Under the pieces are notes generated by a model. It was given only the letters and a program-made list of their open reading frames with translations, ran no database searches and was not told the origin of the DNA. Shown here one piece after another: positions 771-22,885 of a stretch of 22,885 bases of DNA. The stretch covers positions 1 to 22,885 of the IMG/VR virus record IMGVR_UViG_3300006803_000104. One strand, given 5' to 3'. The position numbers and the translations under genes were made by a program. Position 1 is the first letter of the stretch. Each line of letters opens with the position of its first letter. This DNA is from a virus.

Positions 771-1175
771 ATGTCTCATCCGCATGCAAAAGACCTCATC
801 ACAGATGAGCAGACCAATGCGACGTTAGGGTCGCACCAGTTCCCCAAGCCACTGGGCTGGAAAGTATTGGTTCAGCCTAATCAAGCCAAGGCTAAAACAA
901 AAGGTGGCATTTTCCTTCCGGAAAGCTCCAAAGACAATGAAGAATACCTCACAGCCCACGGCACAATCCTTGCGATGGGTGAATTGGCGTATCGAGACCG
1001 TGACACAGGCCAAGCATGGAAAGGCCAGTGGCCAACAGAGGGAAACTCTGTAACATACGGCAAATACGCAGGTCAAAAATTAACAATCAATGGCGTCAAA
1101 ATGTTGCTCCTTAATGATGACGAGATCACATCGGTCTTGCCAGAAGGCGTCAGCATTGCAGCGTATGTGGAGTGA
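771..1175 (+). CDS. groES: GroES-like co-chaperonin (Cpn10)
   Basis: This 134-residue protein matches the Cpn10 fold pattern. Residues about 27-34 (LGWKVLVQ) correspond to the first beta strand. GGIFLPES at about 45-52 corresponds to the mobile loop with the hydrophobic tripeptide that docks on GroEL. HGTILAMGE follows, then VTYGKYAG, and LLLNDDEITSVL near the end corresponds to the conserved C-terminal strand. It is longer than the usual 95-100 residues because of about 25 extra N-terminal residues, an insertion around AYRDRDTGQAWKG and a short extra tail. Phage co-chaperonins (T4 gp31 is the classic case) pair with host GroEL to fold the capsid protein. Its place just upstream of scaffold and capsid genes fits that job. 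An AGGAGG lies 10 bases before ATG. Confidence 0.88.
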   Translation: MSHPHAKDLITDEQTNATLGSHQFPKPLGWKVLVQPNQAKAKTKGGIFLPESSKDNEEYLTAHGTILAMGELAYRDRDTGQAWKGQWPTEGNSVTYGKYAGQKLTINGVKMLLLNDDEITSVLPEGVSIAAYVE

Positions 1176-4099: not shown

Positions 4100-4145
4100 C
4101 CATCCTGACAGCAACAGCTGACAATAGCCAAGACAGGAGATCATA

Positions 4146-4628
4146 ATGGCTAATACAACATTTAAAGGTCCAGTCCGGTCTGAAAACGGATTCCAAGACA
4201 TTACTAAAAATACAACAACAGGTGCTGTAACAAGCACAATGACGCTTCAAACATATGAAGCAACCATAACTGTTGCAAATGGCGCAACCACAGGCAAAGA
4301 AGCAGCCATCGGGATGCCTTCAAACTTTATCCCAATGGGTGTAACTATTGCGGTCACCACTGCAGCTGCAAATGCAGTTAATCTTCAAGACATTGGCACA
4401 GATGCTAATACTGATGGCTTCGTTGATGGAATCAGCGTCGCAGTCAATAGCGTCGGATTCAAAGGCTTCTTTGCTTGCAATGGCATTTTAGGAATGTCTG
4501 GAGCTACAACCACAGCAGCTTTGGAGACCTCAGATGAGGTCGAGCTCGTTGTGTCAGGTGATCCTGGTGGCGACACTGTAATTGTTCTGAAATTCCTTGG
4601 AATATCTAGCTCTTCGGATGCATCTTAA
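4146..4628 (+). CDS. Virion structural protein, Ala/Thr-rich
   Basis: The 160-residue protein begins MANTTFKGPVRSENGFQ, an N-terminus I associate with structural proteins following the capsid gene in marine phages. The rest is low in charge and rich in Ala, Thr, Gly and Val in beta-strand-like alternation, ending in a Ser-rich tail. It lies alone between two hairpins and has an AGGAG site, which suggests a separately tuned and possibly abundant product. A capsid decoration protein or head fibre is plausible. No enzymatic motif is visible. Confidence 0.75.
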   Translation: MANTTFKGPVRSENGFQDITKNTTTGAVTSTMTLQTYEATITVANGATTGKEAAIGMPSNFIPMGVTIAVTTAAANAVNLQDIGTDANTDGFVDGISVAVNSVGFKGFFACNGILGMSGATTTAALETSDEVELVVSGDPGGDTVIVLKFLGISSSSDAS

Positions 4629-5097: not shown

Positions 5098-5778
5098 ATG
5101 GCGACATCTAACACATATGCTTTCCGACCAGATGTTGAAGAGATAATCGCTGAATCATTTGAGCGGTGCGGGATAGACGACGAAACTCGGACAGGCTACC
5201 AAGCCAAAGCAGCTCGCAGGAGCCTTAATTTGCTTTTCAGCGAGTTTGCTAACCGTGGAATAAATTATTGGGCTGTCCAGAATAATACGTTAGCTTTGGT
5301 CGAAGACCAAACAGCTTACACATTGCCTGTCGGAACGATAGATCTGATTGATGTTGTGATACGCCAAACGACTGGCGGCACAACAACTGACACAACAATC
5401 CAAAGAGTCAGCATATCAGAATACAACCAGCTGCCAAACAAATCTTCTTCTGGCAAGCCAAGCCAATATATGTTAGACAAGCAATACACTCCAACAATCA
5501 ATGTTTGGCAAGTTCCAGACAGGACAGATTACAGTCTGGTTTATTGGTCAATAAATCAACTCGAAGATATAACAGCCAGCAACCAAGATGCAGACATCCC
5601 TTACAGATGGACAGATTGCCTCTGTGCTGGGCTGGCGAGCAAGTTGGCAATGAAATATGCCCCTGATAAATTTAACTTGTTGAATCAGGTTTATGAAAGA
5701 GCATTCGAGTTTGCAGCTGCGACAGACAATGATGGCGTTTCAATGAGAGTCCGGCCGAAAGGATTAAATCTTATCTGA
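5098..5778 (+). CDS. Head-tail connector / adaptor protein (P22 gp4-like)
   Basis: This encodes 226 residues. The N-terminal helical block (DVEEIIAESFERCGIDDETRTGY, then AARRSLNLLFSEFANRGINYW, about residues 12-58) followed by beta strands (TAYTLPVGTIDLIDVVIRQ) and a C-terminal helical part (TDCLCAGLASKLAMKYAPDK) is the pattern of tail accessory factor gp4-like adaptors that bind beneath the portal and close the head after packaging. The length is close to the family's. Only a weak AGGA lies before the ATG. Its stop overlaps the start of the next gene by one base. Confidence 0.78.
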   Translation: MATSNTYAFRPDVEEIIAESFERCGIDDETRTGYQAKAARRSLNLLFSEFANRGINYWAVQNNTLALVEDQTAYTLPVGTIDLIDVVIRQTTGGTTTDTTIQRVSISEYNQLPNKSSSGKPSQYMLDKQYTPTINVWQVPDRTDYSLVYWSINQLEDITASNQDADIPYRWTDCLCAGLASKLAMKYAPDKFNLLNQVYERAFEFAAATDNDGVSMRVRPKGLNLI

Positions 5779-6755
5779 TGGCAAGAGTTAAGTATGCAAA
5801 AGGCAAACGATCTTTAGCGATCAGTGATCGCTCTGGATTACGTGTGCCTTATACTCAGCTCAAGACAACTTGGGATGGCCTCAGAGTTTCCCCAGAAGAC
5901 TGGGAGCCAAAGCAGCCGCAGCTGACTCCTGCGAAAAATGTTGTTGATGCAACAGCTCTTTTCAGCCCAAGGCCAGACAACGATCCAGAGAATGTTGAAA
6001 TATTTATTGGATTTAATTATGATCCATTCGTAGATCCTCGTCAAAGGCCAGGAGTTGGTGTTCATGGAACAGGCTTCATTGGTCGCATATCCAGATTTGA
6101 TGTAGAAAACACATCCGTAGCTGGAGCTAGTGGAACAGGTTCTGTTGGCACTATTTCACTGCTTATCACTACAGAAATCAGTGTGACAGGATCATCCGGT
6201 TCCGGCGAAGTTGCAATAGATGTAGCAGCAGTGCAAACCTTGGCAGTGACGGTTCAAAGTGTTGGCGGGGCAAACAAATACTTTATTGCTGGCGTTCAGC
6301 AAGACACGCTGGAATTAATGGAAAGCAGAACATATTATTTCGATCAGTCCGACAGCAGCAATAGCGGACATCCATTGCGATTCAGCACCACGCCAAACGG
6401 CACACACGGTGGAGGCAGCGAGTACACAACAGGTGTGACAACTTCTGGGACTCCAGGAAATGCTGGCGCGTATACTCAGATAGTTGTTGCTGACAGCGCA
6501 CCGACACTTTACTACTACTGCACCCAACACTCTGCTATGGGAGGGCAGGCAAATACACCTGTCTTCGCATCGGTTGTAGTTGAACTAAGCGATATTGTGG
6601 CTGGCGCAAGTGGAACAGGTGCTGTCGGAAATGGAGCTCTAGTAGGCTCCCCAACTGCCACTGGCGCAAGTGGAACAGGTGCCGTCGGGAACGAAAGCAT
6701 AGATATACTTGGCTGGGGTAACGCTGGCTGGGGAGAAGATGGATGGGGCGAATAA
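5778..6755 (+). CDS. Modular virion protein with cupredoxin-like domain and SGTG / GW repeats
   Basis: The 325-residue protein has clear modules. Residues 1-75 (SDRSGLRVPYTQLKTTWDG, then PKQPQLTP) form a conserved N-terminal domain found in marine phage structural proteins. About 115-145 and 272-307 carry repeats of the GASGTGAVG type. Residues about 153-270 are a beta-rich domain with TYYFDQSDSSNSGHPLRF and YYYCTQHSAMGGQ, matching the cupredoxin-like module seen in cyanophage structural proteins; H198, C248, H251 and M254 lie in positions suitable for a type 1 copper site. The end is LGWGNAGWGEDGWGE. It is probably a tail or neck appendage protein. Metal binding is inferred, not shown. Confidence 0.75.
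   Translation: MARVKYAKGKRSLAISDRSGLRVPYTQLKTTWDGLRVSPEDWEPKQPQLTPAKNVVDATALFSPRPDNDPENVEIFIGFNYDPFVDPRQRPGVGVHGTGFIGRISRFDVENTSVAGASGTGSVGTISLLITTEISVTGSSGSGEVAIDVAAVQTLAVTVQSVGGANKYFIAGVQQDTLELMESRTYYFDQSDSSNSGHPLRFSTTPNGTHGGGSEYTTGVTTSGTPGNAGAYTQIVVADSAPTLYYYCTQHSAMGGQANTPVFASVVVELSDIVAGASGTGAVGNGALVGSPTATGASGTGAVGNESIDILGWGNAGWGEDGWGE
6601..6690 (+). repeat. 60-bp-spaced direct repeat encoding GASGTGAVG
   Basis: The first 22 bases of 6601-6630 and 6661-6690 are identical, and 28 of 30 positions match. They encode two copies of the GASGTGAVG motif. A more diverged copy at the protein level lies near 6120. The near-identity at DNA level suggests recent duplication or recombination between copies. 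Confidence 0.8.
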
Positions 6756-11692: not shown

Positions 11693-13603
11693 ATGACTTT
11701 TTCTCTGATAAAATATAACTCAGGGATTGTCAAGGACACCACAGAATATTCTGCTGGTAAGAATGGGCCATTTTACGTTGACAGCGATCTTGTTCGTTTT
11801 GTTAATGGATATCCAGAAAAGATCGGTGGCTGGGAAAAAGATGCGTTTTATGCATTAGACCCTGCTGGAGAAACAACGTCTACTGAAGCCACATTGACTG
11901 GCATTGGTCGGAAGATGGTTTTCTGGAGAGCAGTCGATGGTTTTGATAGGATAGCTGTCGGGACGCACAACCATCTTTACATAATTCAAAACAATGCAAT
12001 CTATGACATAACACCACTGCGGAAAACCACGAGCAACCTCTCTAATCCTTTGGTCGTTACCAATGGCAGCACAACTATCACCGTAACCGATAATTCGCAT
12101 GGAGCTTCAGACGGTGATTTTGTTGTAATAAACTCTGCCACCGCTACAGGAGGGATCCCCGCAGACACAATCAACAGAATGTCTGGCTATCAAATAACTT
12201 TCATTGACACTAATTCTTATTCAATACAATCCCCATCAGCTGCAACGAGCGGAGCCACAGGTGGTGGAACGACAATAGACATAAAATACCTGATCGGCTC
12301 TAGTGATGGGTTGGGCTCACAAAGCGCCAATCCTGCTCTGGGTTGGGGTGTTGGTGGATGGGGTGAGTCAACGTGGAACACGGCAAGATCTTTGTCTCTA
12401 TCTCAAGTAAACTTAGAAAGTTCTGCTTGGAGCTTAAATCTTTGGGGAGAAGACCTCCTTGCAACGGTCAGGGGGAGTGATGTTTATTATTGGGACACAT
12501 CTTCTAATGTTACGAGCAGAGCAGTTTTGGTGTCATCAATAGCCGGAGCAGCTTCTGTCCCAGAAAAAATAAGAGTGTCTGTCGTTAGTTTTCCAGACAG
12601 ACACTTCATAGCTGGTGGGGCCAGCGTTTACGTCGCAGCTGATGGGAGCTCTGGTGACTTGGATCCGATGTTGGTTCGCTGGTCAACTCAAGAAGACTTC
12701 ACGAAGTTTGCACCAACAGCAACCAACACAGCTGGTGATCAACGGTTGGAAGTTGGCACAAAAATAATCACAATGGTCAACACCCGAGAAGAAACTATAA
12801 TAAGCACCGACGAGGCTATTTATGGCATGACGTTCGTGGGGGCACCATTCATATTCTCTTTCCGATTGCTGGCCACTGGAGTTGGTGCCAATGGCATAAA
12901 CTCGATGATCGCTATTGATGGCAATGTATATTGGATGAGCAACAGATCTTTTTACGTTTATGATGGTGTTGTCAAAGAGATTCCTTGTTCCGTAAAACAT
13001 TTTGTTTTCGACAGAATGCAAGGTCGTTATTTCGACAAGACTGCAGTCGGTCATAATGTTGAATTCAACGAGGTCACTTGGTTCTATGTTTCTGACCAGA
13101 ACACAGCTGCTGATAATCCTGAGCCAGACAGTTATGTTTCTTACAACTATGCTGAAAATGCTTGGTCTATTGGAGCTATGGACAGGACGGTCTGGAATGA
13201 TGCGTTTGGCTCTCGAGAAAAACCATTCGCATTTGATGCAGGTGGTCATTTGTATAATCAAGAGACAGGAACAAGCGCAGATGGCGCAGCTATGAATTGC
13301 TTTATTGAAGGTGCGCCAAGAGAAATGACGACGGAAGGCAACAACCTTTATATGGTTGACAGGATAATCCCAGATATTACAATGGGAGCCAACAGCACAG
13401 TTTCAGTTTTCATGAATACTCGCAAGTTCCCGAATGCTTCTGAGACTTCCAAAGGTCCATTCAACATCACTTCCACAACCGAAAAGATCAGCACCAGAGC
13501 AAAAGGTCGCCAGATAGCTTTAAAGTTCCAAAGCACAGGAACCCAAGACGAATGGCAGCTTGGAGATTTTAGAATTGACTTGAGACAGGATGGCCCAAGA
13601 TGA
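11693..13603 (+). CDS. Large tail hub / stabilisation protein candidate (P22 gp10-like)
   Basis: The 636-residue protein begins MTFSLIKYNSGIVKDTTEYS, then PFYVDSDLVRFVNGYPEKIGGW. It contains GTHNHLYIIQNNAIYDITP, a Gly/Trp motif LGWGVGGWGE at about 216-225, WSLNLWGEDLLATVRG, and DPMLVRWSTQEDFTKFAPTA followed by TAGDQRLEVG. Repeated strands of this kind suggest a beta-propeller-like fold, as in the P22 gp10 hub/stabilisation protein that lies between the adaptor and the tail tip. The sequence is very typical of marine podoviruses, where it is usually annotated as structural or stabilisation protein. The gene follows the endopeptidase by one base, so hub and lysis genes share a transcript. The exact hub role is inferred. 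Confidence 0.75.
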   Translation: MTFSLIKYNSGIVKDTTEYSAGKNGPFYVDSDLVRFVNGYPEKIGGWEKDAFYALDPAGETTSTEATLTGIGRKMVFWRAVDGFDRIAVGTHNHLYIIQNNAIYDITPLRKTTSNLSNPLVVTNGSTTITVTDNSHGASDGDFVVINSATATGGIPADTINRMSGYQITFIDTNSYSIQSPSAATSGATGGGTTIDIKYLIGSSDGLGSQSANPALGWGVGGWGESTWNTARSLSLSQVNLESSAWSLNLWGEDLLATVRGSDVYYWDTSSNVTSRAVLVSSIAGAASVPEKIRVSVVSFPDRHFIAGGASVYVAADGSSGDLDPMLVRWSTQEDFTKFAPTATNTAGDQRLEVGTKIITMVNTREETIISTDEAIYGMTFVGAPFIFSFRLLATGVGANGINSMIAIDGNVYWMSNRSFYVYDGVVKEIPCSVKHFVFDRMQGRYFDKTAVGHNVEFNEVTWFYVSDQNTAADNPEPDSYVSYNYAENAWSIGAMDRTVWNDAFGSREKPFAFDAGGHLYNQETGTSADGAAMNCFIEGAPREMTTEGNNLYMVDRIIPDITMGANSTVSVFMNTRKFPNASETSKGPFNITSTTEKISTRAKGRQIALKFQSTGTQDEWQLGDFRIDLRQDGPR

Positions 13604-22026: not shown

Positions 22027-22205
22027 ATTCTTCTCCCTTTTTCTCTTAATTCTCTAACAAATTCTTTCAGGTCTTCTCTGGCCATGTGGTATTTGTTTTT
22101 GGCATCTTCTGGTGCGTCTTTGTTGAACCTCTTGTCTTGAGCCTCATCCACTCGAAATTTGTACCACCTAAGTTGCATTTGTTCATATGCAGAAAGTTCT
22201 TGCAT
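22023..22205 (-). CDS. Small charged helical protein between nuclease and helicase
   Basis: The ATG at 22205-22203 overlaps the helicase stop by one base (TGATG); a GTG three bases earlier is less well spaced from the GGAGG ribosome-binding site. The 60-residue product is strongly charged and helical (MQELSAYEQMQLRWYKFRVD, then YHMAREDLKEFVRELREKGRRI), with an Arg/Lys-rich end. It is not recognised as a family. Its overlap with both neighbours means the three are translated together, so it may be a partner of the helicase or nuclease. That is inference. Confidence 0.72.
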   Translation of the reverse strand: MQELSAYEQMQLRWYKFRVDEAQDKRFNKDAPEDAKNKYHMAREDLKEFVRELREKGRRI

Positions 22206-22885
22206 CACTCCTCCGACAAGAAAAAAGACACCGGATCTTTGGTCACAACATCTGCTAGGTTCTTTTTGTCCCGCAGAGCTTTGATGATCTTTGAGTCAAT
22301 AGTCTTGGGACTCTCGATGTCGATGTATGTTACGTTTTGGGTTGTGCCTATGCGGTGGCACCTGTCTTCCGACTGAAGTCTTGTTTCCAAGTCGAAGCTG
22401 TTGGAATAATATATCGCATAAGACGCAGCTGTCAGCGTCAAGCCTATTCCCCCTGATTGGGGTTGGCCGATGAAGTAACGCACACTAGGATCATTCTGAA
22501 AGCTGTCAACAGCTTTGGCTCTCATGTCGTTCGACACGCCACCATGGTAGCTCACAGCCTTGTGGCCCAACATCCGTTCGATCTGCGCTATGTCGGCTCG
22601 GAAACGTGCCCATATTATCACCTTGGCATCAATGTTGCCCAGCAAATCCTTCAGAGCCTCAAGCCTAGGATTCTTGTCGTCTATGGGCCTTGCTTTCTCT
22701 TCGGCGGGAAACCACCCACAAACTATCTGTTGCAGCCGTAGGAGCCTTGTTATGGCCTCCTGTGCGTCTATTACGTCACCTTCCAACTCAACCACAAAGT
22801 CTTTTTTCAGCGAATCATACAACTTGCGCTGCTTTGGCGAAAGATCAACAAAATGACGTTGATATATTTTGTCCGGCAAGTCCAA
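22205..22885 (-). CDS. SNF2-family DNA helicase, C-terminal half (5' partial)
   Basis: The frame is open to the right edge, so the N-terminal Walker A and DEAx-box part lies outside the window. Over the 226 visible residues the second RecA-like domain is clear: motif IV region KVIIWARFRADI at about 88-99, motif V QPQSGGIGLTL at about 141-151, and motif VI QSEDRCHRIGTTQ at about 171-183, with the arginine finger type R175/R178. The Q-S-x-D-R-x-x-R-I-G signature is that of SNF2 helicases rather than DEAD-box proteins. It probably works in phage replication or recombination with the VRR-NUC nuclease downstream. Confidence 0.88.
   Translation of the reverse strand: MDLPDKIYQRHFVDLSPKQRKLYDSLKKDFVVELEGDVIDAQEAITRLLRLQQIVCGWFPAEEKARPIDDKNPRLEALKDLLGNIDAKVIIWARFRADIAQIERMLGHKAVSYHGGVSNDMRAKAVDSFQNDPSVRYFIGQPQSGGIGLTLTAASYAIYYSNSFDLETRLQSEDRCHRIGTTQNVTYIDIESPKTIDSKIIKALRDKKNLADVVTKDPVSFFLSEE

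Follow-up and report, generated by a model that had tools for sequence, protein, structure and literature searches.

The window, that is, the whole stretch of 22,885 bases of a virus record that was analyzed, belongs to a marine phage related to the Roseobacter phages CRP-901 and CRP-902; the major head proteins of the window and of CRP-901 share 88% identity. The gene under study codes for a fiber-like protein (P0001), in which a single globular module is placed between the second and the third Gly-rich repeat unit (Table 1). P0001 matched the PHROG tail-fiber profiles phrog_30742 (E = 1.1e-22) and phrog_693 (E = 3.6e-19) and also phrog_677 and phrog_708, all four of the category tail, with the match resting partly on the module itself. 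Together with the gene order, these matches suggest that P0001 is a virion protein of the tail or a fiber; the CRP-901 gene at the position of the neighboring window gene is annotated as 'tail adaptor'. A unit similar to the first Gly-rich repeat was also present in CRP-901 gp53, and the C-terminus LGWGNAGWGEDGWGE was identical across many sister genes, module-bearing and module-free alike. By eye, Trp-Gly motifs of the GWGxxGWGE type were seen at the end of P0001 and inside a 636-aa protein encoded at 11693-13603 (GWGVGGWGESTW), possibly representing a shared attachment motif.

Table 1. Coordinates of the module-bearing gene, its parts, and the neighboring gene in the window
Feature	Position	Strand	Basis
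Neighboring gene; homolog in phage 023Pt_psg01 has the module at its N-terminus	5098..5778	+	homology
Gene of fiber-like protein P0001, 325 aa, module-bearing	5778..6755	+	ORF list and PHROG tail-fiber matches
N-terminal segment, residues 1-81, kept in sister genes with and without module	5778..6020	+	comparison of sister genes
Gly-rich repeat unit VAGASGTGSVG, residues 114-124, ahead of module	6117..6149	+	sequence
Gly-rich repeat unit VTGSSGSGEV, residues 136-145, ahead of module	6183..6212	+	sequence
Predicted cupredoxin module, residues 151-272	6228..6593	+	predicted model ma9c98241356d and fold matches
His198, predicted first copper ligand	6369..6371	+	sequence, conservation
Cys248, predicted copper ligand, sole Cys of the protein	6519..6521	+	sequence, conservation
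His251, predicted copper ligand	6528..6530	+	sequence, conservation
Met254, predicted axial ligand	6537..6539	+	sequence, conservation
Gly-rich repeat unit VAGASGTGAVG, residues 274-284, past module	6597..6629	+	sequence
Gly-rich repeat unit ATGASGTGAVG, residues 294-304	6657..6689	+	sequence
Trp-Gly-rich C-terminus LGWGNAGWGEDGWGE, residues 311-325	6708..6752	+	comparison of sister genes

The AlphaFold model of the module, computed with 40 sequences, reached a pLDDT of 92.2 and a pTM of 0.84. In a Foldseek search of the PDB with this model, rusticyanin was the best match and the only one below 1e-3 (E = 7.8e-4), followed by a multicopper oxidase and Hyphomicrobium nitrite reductase; the SO1698 peptidase was among the matches from E = 3.4e-3. 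The TM-scores with single cupredoxins were modest (0.4-0.6). VIA-align placed rusticyanin and the N-terminal cupredoxin domain of Hyphomicrobium nitrite reductase on top (Z 9.3 each, rmsd 2.8 over 102-105 residues, 13-18% identity), and the titles of all 50 matches listed named copper proteins. Since VIA-align Z values of 7 to 8 are often seen in unclear cases, a second line of evidence was sought by separately modeling a relative encoded on a 1.19 Mb SAR86 contig. This model (pLDDT 92.5) gave 20 Foldseek matches in the PDB at E ≤ 1e-3, of which 19 had a copper protein in the title, and a Z of 9.9 (rmsd 2.2 over 88 residues) in VIA-align; an amicyanin mutant was matched by Foldseek at E = 2.6e-3. 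The viral structure-model library contained 68 matches to the module at E ≤ 1e-3, and the named models among the 50 matches listed included cyanophage tail-fiber, baseplate, and virion proteins. In the same library, the fold was also found in two proteins of Marseillevirus LCMAC201 and one of Pithovirus LCPAC302 (E ~1e-5).

A relative from Woeseiaceae (L105) scored above the Pfam cut-off for Copper-bind PF00127, the plastocyanin/azurin family (23.2 vs 21.2 bits), whereas the Pfam search returned no match for the window protein or its domain, PF00127 included. L104 and L114 matched Copper-bind below the cut-off, L108, L109, and L110 did not match it, and in the 40-member phage set (A1) two members matched weakly (best E = 0.15). 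Profile-profile comparison with five SAR86 cupredoxins was weak, with an alignment limited to 20-21 columns at the loop and probabilities of 10 (A2) and 69 (wide alignment). Searches of PDB sequences with the A1 profile yielded 30 matches at E ≤ 10 (best E = 0.029), most of them to antibody chains around 'YYC', and with the A2 profile four weak ones (best E = 0.91); both results were taken as chance, and amicyanin was absent from the matches at E ≤ 10 of either profile.

In the predicted model, the module forms a Greek-key β-sandwich in the range of ~100-130 residues that is superposable on cupredoxins, and residues 151-272 almost certainly adopt this fold. A cupredoxin-like domain had been proposed at this place from the sequence alone (the sequence-only reading), and the confident model, the fold searches, the separate SAR86 model, and the score of L105 for Copper-bind bear out this proposal. 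Some of these cyanophage proteins may already bear a cupredoxin label in automatically generated superfamily tables.

The motif GHPLRF begins at residue 197 and YYYCTQHSAMGG at residue 245, which puts H198, C248, H251, and M254, in the order His-Cys-His-Met, exactly where the sequence-only reading had located possible type 1 copper ligands; the interval given there, 6231-6585, corresponds to residues 152-270. P0001 contains one Cys (248), four His (96, 198, 210, and 251), and three Met (1, 181, and 254). In an alignment of the window module with 48 relatives (49 sequences, down to 33% identity, mean column identity 44%), only five columns were invariant, namely H198, L244, C248, H251, and M254. 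The peptide patterns used in the scans for relatives contained the Cys and the second His, and therefore these two columns were favored and those of the first His and the Met were not. Among the domain rows, all four residues were kept in 138 of the 139 that came from viral contigs, some of these contigs having been entered twice, and in all 37 that came from genome contigs. The sole viral exception (L170) kept the Cys and the His following it, with Asp at the first and Leu at the last position. In a 77-row alignment the C, H, and M columns were invariant by construction, as its 28 added rows had been chosen for having the loop.

As a pattern-independent test, a profile search covered 121 genomes from the order to which the SAR86 genome carrying L103 belongs, and the module was detected in 52 of them (62 matches). 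The 60 stretches fetched covered 61 of the 62 matches (the weakest, E = 1.7e-4, was left out) and were redundant, e.g. L347 and L348 were identical over the domain. The complete set H-C-H-M was present in 58 of the 60, with H-C-H-Q in L345 and N-S-A-M in L362. In stellacyanin the axial ligand is Gln; the one single-site replacement among the SAR86 matches thus brings in a residue that is in use at type 1 copper sites. The check suggested beforehand, namely whether the four residues are conserved together in homologs, thus gave a positive result in the 49-sequence alignment, in the viral and genome rows, and in the SAR86 order. A second, distant group from this order (L373-L377, L379, L381-L393), with open frames of mostly ~570-660 aa, has the loop LYPYCDFHSGM or LYPHCGVHSGM, with all four ligands present.

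The ligand order His...Cys-x(n)-His-x(n)-Met/Gln/Leu of type 1 copper sites is therefore conserved in the family, and the loop is of the amicyanin type, C-x2-H-x2-M. The Met spacing had been described as shorter than in plastocyanin; this holds for the plastocyanin loop, with the correction that the spacing equals that of amicyanin, a protein of cupredoxin fold with the same loop length (CTPHPFM vs CTQHSAM in the module). The ligand loop of rusticyanin (C138, H143, and M148) is longer than that of the module. The residue following the first ligand is Asn in plastocyanin and amicyanin, whereas in the module Pro follows His198; His-Pro is found at this place in multicopper oxidases. Besides the ligands, the conserved residues were chiefly of the core type (Tyr, Phe, Leu, Gly, and Pro). 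The module very probably carries a type-1-copper-like metal site composed of His198, Cys248, His251, and the axial Met254. For the predicted convergence of these four residues on one point, the fold matches across the entire domain provide indirect support. Copper is the probable natural metal of the predicted site, as the His2CysMet ligand set suits copper best.

The module was found in 355 of 50,697 phage records at E 1e-3, in line with the remark in the sequence-only reading that it appears in other marine phage structural proteins. By name, these records were assigned to Synechococcus (252), Cyanophage (63), Prochlorococcus (27), Pelagibacter (4), Methylophilales (4), and others (5). According to the record annotations, the cyanophage proteins bearing it are gp9, a gp10-like protein, and fiber proteins, and complete copies were found in the cultured phages S-TIM5, HTVC028P, P-SSM2, and P-SSM4. 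The records of the Pelagibacter phages Baldr (OQ414636) and Hodr (OQ414635), L219 and L230, seem to have their locus tags interchanged, as the tags in either one carry the name of the other phage. In SAR86, the proteins bearing the module looked secreted by eye and were encoded on long contigs among housekeeping genes; one of them (L110) has 2668 aa and, again by eye, begins like a lipoprotein. In a bin of Bacteroidia, the module occurs within a collagen-like protein. The secreted-type context in SAR86 and the collagen-like context in Bacteroidia point to an extracellular module common to marine bacteria and phages.

Comparison with sister genes revealed that the module is an exchangeable cassette. 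CRP-901 gp53, at the same position in the gene order, has the N-terminus and the repeats in common with P0001 and lacks the module. Among 80 viral loci with a P0001-type N-terminus, 68 genes were complete and 12 were cut by the contig end; the module was present in 52 of the complete genes, in one or two copies at roughly the same place, and absent from 16, and it was present in 9 of the cut genes and not visible in 3. A replacement module was not found in the loci of the 19 sister genes without the cupredoxin module. One module-free gene (L319) has TISLLITTEISVTGSSGSGEV and GNESIDILGWGNAGWGEDGWGE in common with the window and also contains the repeat VTGSSGSGEV, after which different repeats follow. 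Whole-gene DNA alignment was rejected for locating the cassette breakpoints, since the gap positions were inconsistent owing to the repeats, and the protein text was used instead. Another mounting of the module was found in the same gene neighborhood of phage 023Pt_psg01 (L255, 3197-4294), where it precedes, as an N-terminal fusion, an adaptor-like protein homologous to the product of the window gene 5098-5778 (32% identity, E = 1e-41). The presence or absence in sister genes and this fusion show that the module is exchangeable, is dispensable in some sister phages, and is mounted on various tail-region proteins.

The fate of the site was followed in 28 phage records that were hand-picked for diversity out of 359. 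Searching these records as a whole gave 73 places (50 + 23, with the halves of split copies counted apart); from the 64 copies in the fetched stretches, the duplicates (c37 and c57) and the second halves (c54 and c60) were removed, leaving 60 to be examined. The C-x2-H-x2-M loop and the first His were complete in 40 of the 60. The remaining 20 copies were without the loop, and the first His was gone too in 15 of them and kept in 5; these loop-less copies still matched the domain profile. Two supported clades contained 14 of the 20, one comprising a second copy carried by the gp10-like baseplate protein, the other a structural protein adjoining the fiber gene. The tree of the copies needed seven changes, of which two were forced by supported branches. 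A Fisher test of joint loss gave 2.9e-10 with kinship ignored and with copies that are not independent; a kinship-aware test had two supported pairs, too few for power. PSS2 gp080 (D-A-T-M), annotated as a baseplate wedge subunit, is with 112 residues barely more than the domain and, as L362, retained the Met alone of the four residues. The existence of site-less copies indicates that the fold can persist without the site, and in degenerate copies the Cys loop is lost as a block, so that the residues of the site tend to disappear together. The five copies keeping the first His and the partial sites of L170, L362, and PSS2 gp080 indicate that the loss is not strictly all-or-none. The sequence-only reading had considered that the site might be lost with only the fold kept; this applies to the 20 copies elsewhere and not to that of the window, in which all four residues are present.

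The explanation that we favor, with reasonable though limited confidence, is that the module represents a complete type-1-copper-like cupredoxin cassette serving as a probably copper-binding accessory domain of the tail or fiber. The site would hold one copper ion, either loaded inside the host or taken from sea water, the bound copper would fix the ligand loop, and the metal-bearing module would be displayed on the particle as an accessory surface domain of the tail or fiber rather than being an essential assembly part. A point against this explanation is that phages are assembled in the cytoplasm; little free copper is available there, and the explanation does not account for how the module would be loaded. 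That the module contributes to adsorption, by way of a common surface component and not of a strain-specific receptor, is a tentative guess. The conserved core-type residues and the sharing of the module by phages of Synechococcus, Prochlorococcus, Pelagibacter, and Methylophilales argue for metal binding or a common target over a strain-specific receptor. Adsorption, stability, and redox functions are indistinguishable from sequence; among the roles, an accessory surface-binding one was ranked first, though as less likely than not.

It is possible, if rather unlikely, that copper or zinc merely stiffens a β-sandwich that spaces or protects the fiber in sea water and has no target molecule. 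The module is embedded in a run of repeats, and the prevalence of core-type residues beyond the ligands would be expected if no partner surface were under selection. However, 16 of the 68 complete sister genes do without the module, and some phages retain site-less copies of the same fold; stability alone therefore does not require the metal. We consider it unlikely that the four residues are kept for a reason other than metal binding, such as packing or a reactive Cys linking another protein, with the site naturally empty. The Pro in place of the usual Asn behind the first His would fit such a reading, but the replacement of Met by Gln, a known axial ligand of type 1 sites, as the sole single-site change in the SAR86 set speaks against it, as does the match of the loop-less copies to the domain profile, from which it follows that the four residues are not needed for the fold. 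Somewhat less probable still is a function in redox chemistry or electron transfer, or in copper scavenging, in which copper cycles or is delivered, e.g. at the host surface: electron carriers have this fold and this set of ligands, and the SAR86 relatives lie within apparently secreted proteins, but inspection of the window's ORF list by eye showed no gene for a redox partner, and the copy number of the module varies from 0 to 2 across sister genes. A carbohydrate-binding β-sandwich of merely cupredoxin-like appearance is very improbable. In its favor, Pfam PF02018 CBM_4_9 matched 5 of the 40 A1 members (best E = 3e-4) and 1 of the 19 A3 members (E = 0.0077), but the fold matches of the window and SAR86 models were cupredoxins, the ligand set is conserved, and L105 scored above the Copper-bind cut-off.

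Returning to the copper-binding accessory domain, the retention of the four ligands in the window and in most ocean phage and bacterial relatives means that these virus particles may carry copper. Amicyanin, with which the module shares the loop length, is a free periplasmic electron carrier, whereas the module is a domain of a phage fiber-like protein. In a wider scenario, many abundant ocean phages would carry working type 1 copper sites on tails, baseplates, or fibers and would employ the bound copper, in analogy to the iron Trojan-horse proposal, for attachment to hosts that seek or handle copper, SAR86-type bacteria would display the same module on their own surface proteins, and phages would gain and lose the cassette; taken as a whole, this scenario is speculative and improbable. 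If the metal is present, the virions of abundant ocean phages would count as copper proteins, which would bear on adsorption, stability, and marine trace-metal binding. Free blue copper proteins are already known. In our literature search, outside of which lay subscription papers and bioRxiv preprints, neither a complete and kept type 1 copper ligand set within phage tail, baseplate, and fiber proteins nor any report of a cupredoxin among phage structural proteins came up. Cyanophages encode petE, i.e. free plastocyanin, a blue copper protein (PMC3037559). It is a separate photosynthesis protein and not a structural one, whereas the module is built into a structural protein. Iron bound by HxH motifs on marine phage tail fibers and a Trojan-horse adsorption idea have been proposed (T4 gp37; Alteromonas phage R22Y; PMC11705849); there, the iron lies between paired His of a trimeric fiber, whereas the module would have one His2CysMet site within a cupredoxin.

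Elsewhere in the window, Rfam identified a Mu-gpT-DE RNA (RF03012) at 4103-4148 (+), directly past the major head protein gene, with 52.1 bits and thus above the gathering score. The gene at 771-1175 (+) probably codes for a GroES co-chaperonin, judged by eye and by comparison with the gene order in CRP-901, where gp61 bears this annotation. At 22205-22885 (-), an open frame cut at the window end resembles by eye the C-terminal part of an SNF2-type helicase.
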